DNA of 56,363 nucleotides from an uncultured Oscillospiraceae bacterium. Lineage in GTDB: Bacteria > Bacillota > Clostridia > Oscillospirales > Oscillospiraceae. The stretch's first letter is position 1, and the number at the start of each line of letters is the position of its first letter. This document shows, piece after piece, positions 43,533 through 46,951 of the stretch. The DNA is taken from the NCBI GenBank assembly GCA_905234855.1, contig CAJOIU010000011.1, positions 4,582 through 60,944 on the forward strand, written 5' to 3'. The notes under the pieces are model-generated. The model saw only the letters and a list, made by a program, of their open reading frames with translations. It had not been told where the DNA came from and made no database searches. The translations under genes were made by a program, and so were the position numbers.

Positions 43533-44375
43533 TCAGGCAGCCCAGCTCGGGTCGAAGGCGGCATGGACAGCGTCCACGATCTCCTGATCGGCCGCATCGC
43601 CGGAATCAGCGACCCATTCGCCCTTGTCGATGCTGCCGGCAACGTCCTTGCCGTCCACGGTGATGACGAAGCTCTTCGTCATCTGATCGCCGTTGTCGAC
43701 ATCGGCATAATGCGCCGTGACGGTCTCGCCGTTCAGCTCGATCTCATAATCCTGCTCAGTATCGCCTCCGCTGGGCTCGCCGGAAGGCTCCTCGCCCTCG
43801 GCAGGCTCCTCGGTGGGCTCGCCGGAGGCTTCGTCGGAAGCGGGCATGGGGTTCGCGGCCATCTCGGCGGCCATCTGCTCGTTGAAGGCAATGGCTTCGT
43901 CGATCTCGGCTTGGGTGAAGTAGATGTGATAGAGACCCTCGCCCATGGAGGTAACGGCGTCGGTCACGGTGATGGTAACGTCGCCGGTGATGCCGGAGAC
44001 GGTGACCAGCTCGGCGGTGGGATACTGGAAGGGGCCGCCGGGGGTGACGTTCGAATAGGAGACCGTACCCTCGCTGGCCGTGATGCCGGCGCCGAAGCCG
44101 TCGGCCGCGAGCTTCCCATCGTCGGGCGCGCCGAGGTCGGCGGGAGCGTCGCACTGGAAGAAGAACACGAGGTCTTCCCCGGCGGGGAGGTTATAGGTCT
44201 CGCCGGTGGAGAAGGTGACGAGATAGGTCTCGCCGGCGGGAGCGGCAGCGGGGGCCTCCGCCGCGGGTGCCTCGGCGGCAGGGGCAGCAGCCGGAGCCTC
44301 GGGCGCGGAGCCGCCGCAGGCGCACAGCGCGAAGACCATCATGGCCGCCAGCATAAGTGCAAGAATCTTTTTCAT
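43533..44375 (-). CDS. larger lipoprotein paralogue with DNGDQ domain
   Basis: The 280-residue protein starts MKKILALMLAAMMVFALCACGG (lipid cysteine about 20). After a short Ala/Pro/Glu linker it has a domain ETYLVTFSTGETYNLPAGED through GLYHIYFTQAEIDEAI (about 50-175), a second linker with SGEPTEEP and SGEPSGG, and the C-terminal domain with DNGDQ (227-231) and IDKG (249-252) shared with the neighbouring lipoprotein. Upstream in-frame codons exist but only this ATG gives the signal peptide. Function unknown. Confidence 0.82.
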   Translation of the reverse strand: MKKILALMLAAMMVFALCACGGSAPEAPAAAPAAEAPAAEAPAAAPAGETYLVTFSTGETYNLPAGEDLVFFFQCDAPADLGAPDDGKLAADGFGAGITASEGTVSYSNVTPGGPFQYPTAELVTVSGITGDVTITVTDAVTSMGEGLYHIYFTQAEIDEAIAFNEQMAAEMAANPMPASDEASGEPTEEPAEGEEPSGEPSGGDTEQDYEIELNGETVTAHYADVDNGDQMTKSFVITVDGKDVAGSIDKGEWVADSGDAADQEIVDAVHAAFDPSWAA

Positions 44376-44421
44376 GGTTATCCTCCTAAAAAAATTTCCC
44401 TTGCGGGTTTTTTCCGCTTCT

Positions 44422-44450
44422 ATTATGGCACAAATCCGCGCCATTGTCAA
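44422..44450 (-). promoter_or_regulatory. promoter of the second lipoprotein gene
   Basis: TTGACA (44450-44445), 17 nt, CATAAT (44427-44422). The -35 overlaps the T run of the terminator just upstream. Confidence 0.75.
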
Positions 44451-44480
44451 AAAAAGAGAGAGCCGCATCCAGCGGCTCTC
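44449..44480 (-). terminator. terminator of the ncRNA candidate
   Basis: GAGAGCCGC/GCGGCTCTC stem (44472-44480 with 44458-44466) followed by a seven-T run on the minus strand (44455-44449). Confidence 0.85.
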
Positions 44481-44634
44481 GGATGAACTATAAACGCCCC
44501 TGCGCGCAGCGAGTCGGAAAGGAGTTTCCTTGCATGAGAAAGCATCAAGAGGAGAAAGGGGTATTGGTTTGCAAAAGCCCATGATGCAGGGGCGGTGGCG
44601 GCATTCGAAACGCATCGTGCGCTCTCCATCCGCC
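44450..44634 (-). ncRNA. candidate free-standing structured RNA, about 180 nt
   Basis: The segment is bounded by its own promoter (44638-44666) and a strong terminator, with no credible gene inside. The RNA's 5' end pairs with its 3' end just before the terminator (CGGATG 44632-44627 with 44485-44480); a 9-bp helix CGCCCCTGC/GCAGGGGCG follows (44594-44586 with 44503-44495). Between them lies a bubble of 32 nt (with a GCGCA-CGA-TGCGT hairpin) against 9 nt (TTTATAGTT). Size and end-pairing recall 6S RNA, but I could not confirm this. It lacks the conserved cores of SRP RNA, RNase P and tmRNA. Confidence 0.5.
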
Positions 44635-44637
44635 TAC

Positions 44638-44666
44638 AATAAAACATAAAAAACCCGCTTCGTCAA
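44638..44666 (-). promoter_or_regulatory. promoter of the ncRNA candidate
   Basis: TTGACG (44666-44661), 17 nt, TTTATT (44643-44638). The -35 lies in the loop of the preceding terminator-like hairpin. Confidence 0.5.
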
Positions 44667-44676
44667 GGGGTTTTTT
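44648..44676 (-). terminator. second terminator-like hairpin downstream of the beta-helix gene
   Basis: AAAAAACCC/GGGTTTTTT stem (44676-44668 with 44656-44648). Confidence 0.55.
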
Positions 44677-44771: not shown

Positions 44772-46547
44772 TCAGAAAGCGGGGGGAGGCGCTTCGCCGT
44801 TGGCCTGATAATAGGCCGCGAAGTCCTCGAAGCCGTAGGCGCCGAACTCGATCAGCATGGAAAACGGCATCTGGCTCTCGTCATAGCCCGCCTCGAACAC
44901 GGAATCGAGCGCGGCGTTGAATTCGTCGTAGAACTCGTCCTGCTGGAGCTGGGAGCGGATATACTCGATATACAGGTCGAAGAGATCCACGCCGTTTTCC
45001 GGCTCGCCGGAGGCCAGCACCACGCGCGGCTCATTCGACGCGCCGTTCACGTTCCCGGAGGCCGCCGCGATCACGGGCTGGACATAGGTGTCCCACGAGG
45101 TCTGGTAGCTGGAGAAGCTGTTGCCCGCCGCCCAGAGGCCGGATTCCTCCCGCAGCCAGTCGAGACTGCCGTAGGTATCGGCTGTGTATTCGGGCGCGGG
45201 GGAAACGGCCTCGGGATACCGATTCGCCTCATATTCGCCGTTATACTGCCCGCCGCCGTATACGTTGATGGTCACATCGCACTCGCCGTCCTTCACGACC
45301 TCGCCGGTCAGAACGGCTCCGTCGAAGAGATTGATCTCCACGACGCCGCCCTCATAGCAGTAGATATCGCCGACAAGCTCGGTATCCCACAGGTTCACGT
45401 AGACCTTGCCCGCGCCCATGCCGTTTTCGTATTCCACCATGACGGCATAATCCGCATTGCAGGCGGAGGTGTCGCAGTTTACGATATAATGATGCGTGAC
45501 GCCGCCCTGCTCGTGGATGACCGCGCTGCCGGTCGCCTCATACGCACAGTCGAAGGAGAAGGTGGTATCGCCGGAGGCGTTCGCCGGGGAGGGCATCGCC
45601 TGATGTCCGTCGAAGATCTCCGGGCCGTAGAGCGAGCAGTCCTTCAGAACGACGACGCTGTTGTTATGCGCGTTCATGACACACTCGGAGACGTTCGAAT
45701 GAAGGGTGGAGTTTTCCAGCACATAGATCGAAGAACCCGCCGCGTAGATGCCCGCTGAGCCGGCGGTATTCGACTCGGCATAGGTGTCCTTCACTTGGAA
45801 GAAGCCGCCGCCAAAGTCGGTGGACAGGGCGCTGGAGGCGCCGCCGTTCGTGCGGATGACGCAGTTATCCACATAGAACGTGCCGCCGAAGGTAGCGTCG
45901 AGGCCGTGGCCTTGATTATTGTTCGTGATAACGGTGGAATCGTGGATATCGATCACGGAGCCGTTCGCGGCAAAGGCGCCGTTCGAGGTGGAGCCGGAGG
46001 CGCAGAGGATCGTCACGTTGTCAAGATCGACCGCCGTGCCCTCGCCGGTGGCCAAAACGCCCGCCGCCATGCCGAACTTGCTCCCGTATTCGTTGCGGCT
46101 GTCGGAATAGAACTCGTCCTCGGTCAGCACGCCGTCGCCGTTATCGTCGCGGTACTCGCCGCTGATGAAGCCATAGGACAGGAAGGTGTCGCCGGAAAAG
46201 GCCACGGACGCGCCGTTCTCCACATAGGCCGCAGAGGCGCCGCGGATATTCTCGCCCACGATGGCGCCGGACAGGGGAAATACCGCCACGTCGCCATAGA
46301 AGGCATACGCCGTGCCGGGCTCCACGGTTTTGACGTACCCGTCCACCGTGACGACGGGAACGCTGCCCGCCGGGGCGGCGAGGCGGCTCGTCTCGTCGAT
46401 GGTGAGGCGGTACAGATGCAGCGGCTCCGTCACCGCAAAGACCGCGCCGTCGGTAAGGTCGAGGTAATCTTCCGCCGAGGCGAAGGCCGCCGTGCCGAGG
46501 CTCAGCACAAAGACCAGCGCCAGAAGAATGCCGAACAGTCGTTTCAT
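44772..46547 (-). CDS. exported parallel beta-helix-like protein
   Basis: The 591-residue protein starts MKRLFGILLALVFVLSLGTAAFASA after AAGGAGG. After the signal peptide (1-25) it has many short hydrophobic-turn units (DNVTILCASGSTSNGAF; VIDIHDSTVITNNNQGHG; IYVLENSTLHSNVSEC; VEINLFDGAVLTG), as in pectate-lyase-like right-handed beta helices. An EF-like DDNGDGVLTEDEF lies near residue 145. The end (about 430-591) is helical with LASGEPENG and ends GEAPPPAF. No anchor is visible. It may bind or cut polysaccharide; no catalytic site could be assigned. Confidence 0.78.
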   Translation of the reverse strand: MKRLFGILLALVFVLSLGTAAFASAEDYLDLTDGAVFAVTEPLHLYRLTIDETSRLAAPAGSVPVVTVDGYVKTVEPGTAYAFYGDVAVFPLSGAIVGENIRGASAAYVENGASVAFSGDTFLSYGFISGEYRDDNGDGVLTEDEFYSDSRNEYGSKFGMAAGVLATGEGTAVDLDNVTILCASGSTSNGAFAANGSVIDIHDSTVITNNNQGHGLDATFGGTFYVDNCVIRTNGGASSALSTDFGGGFFQVKDTYAESNTAGSAGIYAAGSSIYVLENSTLHSNVSECVMNAHNNSVVVLKDCSLYGPEIFDGHQAMPSPANASGDTTFSFDCAYEATGSAVIHEQGGVTHHYIVNCDTSACNADYAVMVEYENGMGAGKVYVNLWDTELVGDIYCYEGGVVEINLFDGAVLTGEVVKDGECDVTINVYGGGQYNGEYEANRYPEAVSPAPEYTADTYGSLDWLREESGLWAAGNSFSSYQTSWDTYVQPVIAAASGNVNGASNEPRVVLASGEPENGVDLFDLYIEYIRSQLQQDEFYDEFNAALDSVFEAGYDESQMPFSMLIEFGAYGFEDFAAYYQANGEAPPPAF

Positions 46548-46620
46548 GTGTGTCTCCTCCTTGATGATATATTGGGGTATGCTTATCTCCGCGCAAACGC
46601 CGCCGGACGCCTGCGATGGA

Positions 46621-46951
46621 TCACTCATAGATCAGAATGCTGCCCGCCGCCCGGATCGCCTCGAACTCAACGTAGTCCGTAATGCTGAAATAATCCCCCT
46701 CGGGAACCACGCTGCCCCGGGGATAGTCGTCCGGGATCACGCTGCCGTGGGGATACCTCAGCGTAACCCCCCGATTGATATTGGCGCTGTCCAGCGTAAC
46801 GACGACGGTATCTCTGCACCAGTCCCTGCCGCCGACATATTCGCGGCTCACCTCTTCGCCGAGCTCAGGCTGCTGGACCGGCTCCTCCTCCGCAGGCGCA
46901 CAGCGCCAACAGCATGACCGTTGCCAAAAGCATCACCGTGATCCTTTTCAT
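46621..46951 (-). pseudogene. small lipoprotein gene split by a frameshift
   Basis: From ATG 46951 the frame codes MKRITVMLLATVMLLALCAC and then GGGAGPAA before TGA at 46867-46865: a lipoprotein signal that stops at 28 residues. One base further, the frame reads EEEPVQQPELGEEV and runs on as SREYVGGRDWCRDTVVV to a stop at 46621. Together they form an ordinary lipoprotein of about 110 residues. The shift point lies in GGAGGAGGAG. It may be a true mutation, an assembly error, or less likely programmed +1 frameshifting. The ATG overlaps the nrnA stop by 4 nt. Confidence 0.75.

Follow-up and report, generated by a model that had tools for sequence, protein, structure and literature searches.

A genus-restricted candidate small RNA of uncultured Oscillospiraceae with a nearly invariant core complementary to ribosome-binding sites in related species

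The RNA gene and its surroundings

The stretch of DNA analysed (the window; 56,363 nt) contains a gene-free segment that encodes, judged by comparison with relatives, a real candidate RNA on the minus strand at about 44632–44450, with a promoter and a terminator of its own. A segment of this kind had been described in an earlier note on this DNA, and both signals (TTGACG-17-TTTATT; terminator at 44480–44450) were found in place. The promoter scored below the cut-off of the promoter scan; it was identified by visual inspection and is backed by conservation. The unit is composed as follows:

44450..44632, minus strand: small RNA, about 183 nt, of predicted function; unit kept across relatives
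44661..44666, minus strand: -35 hexamer TTGACG of the RNA promoter; TTGAC in 30/30 loci
44638..44643, minus strand: -10-like TTTATT, 17-nt spacer to the -35; transcription would start near 44632
44648..44676, minus strand: hairpin AAAAAACCC..GGGTTTTTT, terminator-like and belonging to the upstream gene, with the -35 of the RNA in its loop
44450..44480, minus strand: intrinsic terminator of the RNA, GAGAGCCGC-TGGAT-GCGGCTCTC plus TCTTTTTT

In relatives the -10 element was mostly TTATAT or TTAGAT, following TGTGn. Intrinsic terminators of unrelated sequence stood after the RNA in 27/30 loci (lacking in L023, L028, which is at a contig end, and L030), and the predicted RNA length was 181–224 nt across the 30 loci. 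The independent promoter/terminator unit expected of a trans-acting small RNA that blocks Shine-Dalgarno sequences is thus present as far as sequence evidence goes. The terminator-like hairpin around the -35 was similar in L002 (G022) and was not seen in L003. An A/T-rich element like AAAATTTCCAAAAATTTGCAAAA, which may be an UP element or a site for a regulator, was observed upstream of the -35 in many loci (e.g. L005, L019).

In many genomes the nearest or second-nearest gene upstream, on the same strand, encodes a DHH/DHHA1 protein (nrnA-like by Pfam), and chromate-transporter-like genes were common downstream of the RNA; clustering of neighbours over 32 loci gave 18 proteins of the former and 15 of the latter kind. 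In the window an extra beta-helix-like protein (44772–46628, just below the Pfam cut-off) is placed in between. The frame of the lipoprotein-like gene downstream (43533–44615, minus strand, 360 codons) extends without a stop codon into the RNA gene, apparently by chance, as far as relatives show.

The position of the RNA just upstream of this gene and on the same strand would suit a leader or attenuator. Such a role is very improbable: the next gene is served by a separate promoter of its own (TTGACA-17-CATAAT), the terminators described above intervene, and the genes downstream differ among genomes and are often in the opposite orientation. The earlier note had likewise taken the segment for a separate noncoding RNA of about 180 nt, followed by a gene with its own promoter, and this description holds.

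For the RNA itself, the following fold elements were assigned:

44586..44594, minus strand: 5' arm of the closing helix, CGCCCCTGC; in 29/29 aligned rows (21 distinct)
44495..44503, minus strand: 3' arm of the closing helix, GCAGGGGCG; 9-bp helix in 29/29 aligned RNAs
44597..44634, minus strand: variable 5' hairpin, predicted in the minimum-energy fold

The 9-bp helix (44594–44586 with 44503–44495), noted earlier, is present. The 6-bp pairing of the RNA ends (44632–44627 against 44485–44480) and the 32/9-nt bubble that had been proposed together with it can be drawn, but the minimum-energy fold prefers the 5' hairpin (44634–44597). A loose scan with G-U pairs allowed gave some 6-bp end pairing, of other sequence, in 17/29 loci, the chance estimate being about 40%, so that the scan weighs neither for nor against this pairing. 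A local 5' hairpin was predicted in relatives too; it and the terminator stems vary in sequence (the hairpin in strength also), and the closing helix and the core of the RNA hardly change. The fold stability of the segment was modest (z -2.0; 8/200 shuffles as stable). Covariation was weak (1/20 pairs changes on both sides; 37/500 shuffles score as high), and the secondary structure is therefore mainly a prediction. The RNA was accepted as being beyond chance because its promoter, terminator and helix are conserved, and not on account of fold stability.

Distribution and relation to known RNA families

BLASTN of the segment gave matches in 31/60 relatives, all of the same genus (31/35, own genome included; 0/25 outside it). 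A pattern search added G004, so that a homologue is present in 32/35 genomes of this uncultured Oscillospiraceae genus; non-conservation in close relatives, which the earlier note had named as evidence against the RNA, is not what was observed. The RNA was not found in G005, G006 and G023, the assemblies of which are 64, 79 and 82% complete. Relatives with named records are uncultured Oscillospiraceae MAGs, many of them from rabbit (Lapin) and deer samples. A variant clade, the core of which has an insertion, is made up of L028–L030 plus G004 and G027, recognised by pattern; L028 (contig end) was left out of alignments A1 and A2, and L023 also out of A1.

A scan of 84,980 genomes with a 21-nt core pattern matched 33 contig stretches, 31 of which are this RNA gene, all 31 with the 5' arm of the closing stem and TTGAC (the L105 stretch ends ahead of the 3' arm). 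The remaining two were the feoA2 site of G032, described below, and a stretch in Arenibacter (L135) that has no stem and no promoter and was treated as chance. A covariance model, run under strict filters that could overlook distant relatives, gave no convincing match in 394 genomes of the order beyond the window's own genome (G000), and 6 matches in 300 genomes searched at family level, all of this genus; one weak match in G216 (7.2e-4) was coding-like sequence without the core and was rejected. There was no match to the RNA in plasmids and phages, and no exact pattern match in viral contigs. On these searches the RNA appears restricted to one genus so far, with no convincing homologue outside it.

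No Rfam 15 family reached its gathering score in the window (0 matches, the 6S model included), and this held for the RsaE/RoxS, LhrC and csRNA families as they stand in Rfam 15; matches at lax thresholds (freshwater-2, Trp_leader, others) were below gathering and were treated as chance. The earlier note had compared the segment with 6S RNA, suggested an Rfam check and allowed equally for an unknown RNA. The size of about 180 nt and the closed stem with a large internal bubble do recall 6S RNA. However, a canonical 6S RNA (RF00013) is encoded elsewhere in the same genome (G000:C2:68657-68850; 64.5 bits vs gathering score 46.4), RF00013 matches 51/60 relatives, the locus fails the covariance model and the predicted fold has no long apical stem. 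The RNA as the genome's main 6S RNA is already refuted, and 6S identity in general deserves hardly any credence; the alternative of an unknown RNA proved to be the right one. In G015 two 6S RNA matches were seen in one genome (C54, C101). By its sequence, the candidate represents an RNA family that is new and has no entry in Rfam 15.

The conserved core and its matches at ribosome-binding sites

Within the large loop closed by the 9-bp helix, three stretches were distinguished:

44534..44561, minus strand: nearly invariant core CCCCTTTCTCCTCTTGATGCTTTCTCAT (variation at just two positions, in the variant clade), predicted to be the recognition region
44542..44554, minus strand: seed CTCCTCTTGATGC; its complement GCATCAAGAGGAG lies at the ribosome-binding sites of amtB, feoA2 and proC
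44516..44525, minus strand: second anti-Shine-Dalgarno-like stretch ACTCCTTTCC; ACTCCTTT invariant in 29/29

The core is pyrimidine-rich and, in the prediction, mostly unpaired in the large loop closed by the 9-bp helix; CCUUUCUCCUC was unpaired with 0.74–0.92 in 7/7 RNAs folded.

Read on the opposite strand, the core region offers a start-like GGAAAGGAG-TTTCCTTGC-ATG AGA AAG CAT, that is, a good Shine-Dalgarno sequence and an ATG, with nine first codons (MRKHQEEKG) common to the main clade. That a small protein gene explains the conservation is nevertheless quite improbable, because the frames diverge after the core (their lengths range from 16 codons to at least 100), in the variant clade MIRKH is followed by a stop, and promoter and terminator are on the RNA strand.

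The exact 13-mer GCATYAAGAGGAG matched 42 times in the 35 genomes: 32 RNA genes and 10 others. Nine of these ten were GCATCAAGAGGAG in sense orientation at a ribosome-binding site (7 amtB, 1 feoA2, 1 proC); the tenth is in a leader, 45 nt upstream of a cysteine-desulfurase-like gene of G023, a genome in which the RNA was not found. There (L173, ~1312-1324) GCATCAAGAGGAG is inside a possible hairpin. The reversed-pattern control gave 12 matches, so that the number of non-RNA matches is not raised and only their placement stands out; when AAGAGGAG was kept and eight scrambled prefixes were put in front of it, 12 matches were obtained in the 35 genomes, 1 of them at a plausible ribosome-binding site. 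AAGAGGAG itself was present in 9/462 start regions from the fetched loci, namely 8 amtB and the proC. The seven amtB cases are orthologues and not independent, and the proC (1 genome) was assigned from sequence, a 50-aa fragment of it matching NADP-binding families in Pfam.

The longer pattern GCATCAAGAGGAGAAAGG (≤2 mismatches; 35 genomes) gave 11 matches outside the RNA gene vs 5 with the reversed control: 5 feoA2 sites, 3 amtB (G033, G014, G015) and 3 that lie within coding sequence or antisense to it (L136, L137, L141) and were rejected. Two other core segments, used as target finders, gave no more matches than their reversed controls: AAGAGGAGAAAGGGG (≤1 mismatch) had 5 non-RNA matches, one being feoA2 and another (L175) immediately preceding a start codon; for GGAAAGGAGTTTCCTG (≤2 mismatches) there were many, in numbers equal to or lower than those of the control, several being at ribosome-binding sites (16 inspected), and no target is claimed from them.

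In G032 a second exact 22-nt match proved to be antisense to the feoA2 ribosome-binding site (22/22 nt); feoA2 is the second of two feoA genes in that genome (FeoA domain, Pfam). Duplex energies were expressed as z relative to 100 dinucleotide-shuffled cores; a background of 461 start regions had a mean z of 0.05 (sd 1.12), and four unrelated genes also reached z ≤ -3, besides amtB and proC. Strong feoA2 duplexes were found at 5/28 sites (G032, G018, G034, G012, G025; z -5.4 to -8.0; 0/100 shuffled cores better); the other 23/28 (z -2.6 to +0.7) do not stand out. The five strong sites depart from perfect complementarity by 10 differences in all, of which 8 are A>G facing a U, so that a G-U pair is kept.

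amtB (Pfam Ammonium_transp) was found in 24/35 genomes; L169–L171, partial matches with no reliable start, were left out of the energy scoring. CATCAAGAGGAGG is the ribosome-binding site of 9/18 main-clade amtB genes; z was ≤ -3 in 7/18 and ≤ -2 in 10/18 of the main-clade sites, 8/18 not standing out, and each variant-clade amtB scored with its own genome's RNA gave z -2.8 to -3.4 (4/4). The matching site seems to have moved between genes, feoA2 vs amtB; this is suggested because the genomes with strong feoA2 pairing either have no amtB match (G032, G025) or have amtB sites without CATCAAG (G012, G034, G018).

Three further features of these genes were observed. Repeats such as TTAGTTAGTAAAAACTAA upstream of feoA1 (L041 2435-2560, G032, minus strand) resemble DtxR-type iron-repressor boxes. 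In L147–L164 the amtB ribosome-binding site is preceded, at a distance of 20–30 nt, by a GC-rich inverted repeat with a T run after it (CGTCCCTGCCGTTTTTT), possibly an attenuator of the kind that ANTAR proteins control. The feoA1 match of G026 and G030 (L064, L065) crosses two TGA codons in both.

A motif of 13 to 22 bp common to the RNA gene and to target start regions would look identical if it were a double-stranded DNA site for a regulator. We consider this quite improbable, since the motif coincides with ribosome-binding sites and has its purine strand in the mRNA, the complement is part of the small RNA's own transcript, and 8 of the 10 differences at feoA2 are of a kind that G-U pairing tolerates.

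The window's own genome gave less. Its feoA2 had z -0.7, no amtB match was found, there was no exact GCATCAAGAGGAG outside the RNA gene, and the single 2-mismatch match lies in coding sequence. An accessible, conserved seed complementary to unlinked start regions, as expected of an RNA that blocks Shine-Dalgarno sequences, is thus seen in relatives and was not seen here with the targets tested. No strong target was present among these, so the mechanism proposed for this species is an extrapolation from its relatives.

Proposed mode of action and comparison with known small RNAs

Judged by conservation and complementarity, we hold with some confidence that the RNA is a new, genus-restricted, trans-encoded small RNA, most likely an antisense RNA that blocks translation, and that in related species it probably switches off messages related to iron, ammonium and proline. 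The unpaired core would pair with the Shine-Dalgarno regions of the feoA2, amtB and proC mRNAs, the pairing would keep ribosomes off, and less of the ferrous-iron, ammonium and proline proteins would be made; the targets would differ among lineages, the core of the RNA being constant.

The main competitor is a structured RNA, the core of which is kept by a binding protein or by another abundant RNA, the complementarity to ribosome-binding sites being incidental or secondary. The core is almost invariant even where there is no strong target (G000; for feoA2, five variant-clade genomes), and a small RNA with few targets need not hold 28 nt so strictly. This reading is clearly the less likely one, given that a perfect 22-nt complementarity and repeated long ones occur at equivalent functional positions in three genes and that the core is predicted to be unpaired.

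A bolder version of the antisense reading, offered tentatively, is that of a genus-specific master anti-RBS RNA: with the core fixed, unlinked genes would gain or lose a matching ribosome-binding site, and uptake would be rewired by mRNA changes alone. feoA2 would be the target in one group, amtB in others and proC once, with iron and nitrogen uptake placed on one RNA.

Literature searches on these uncultured gut bacteria listed no described small RNA of such a kind, and a new RNA family is added to this group. If the pairing is right, iron and ammonium uptake are linked post-transcriptionally, and about 30 species form a natural series in which target sites for one and the same small-RNA core have been gained, kept or lost, and in which the rewiring of small-RNA regulons could be studied directly.

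The best reading is that the RNA works like RsaE/RoxS, LhrC and the csRNAs, being a member of no Rfam family tested; each of the three differs from it in that their Rfam families give no match here. RsaE/RoxS of Staphylococcus and Bacillus is described as pairing through C-rich stretches with Shine-Dalgarno sequences and so blocking initiation (PMC4409812). It is likewise a Firmicute small RNA with Shine-Dalgarno pairing, predicted in the present case; unlike the single 28-nt core in a closed loop found here, it is described with several short C-rich regions, and its targets are other ones. In the LhrC family of Listeria, unpaired UCCC motifs are reported to pair, independently of Hfq, with AG-rich ribosome-binding sites of uptake genes (PMC8079631); by that account these RNAs are of 105–121 nt and multicopy, whereas the present RNA is single-copy and of ~180–200 nt. 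The csRNAs of streptococci, as reported in PMC3091779, have an unpaired region complementary to the Shine-Dalgarno sequence and the start codon (CAU in 53/61). They occur several per genome and under CiaRH, in contrast to a single gene in another order; the arrangement is alike in that here CUUUCUCAU adjoins ACUCCUUUCC.
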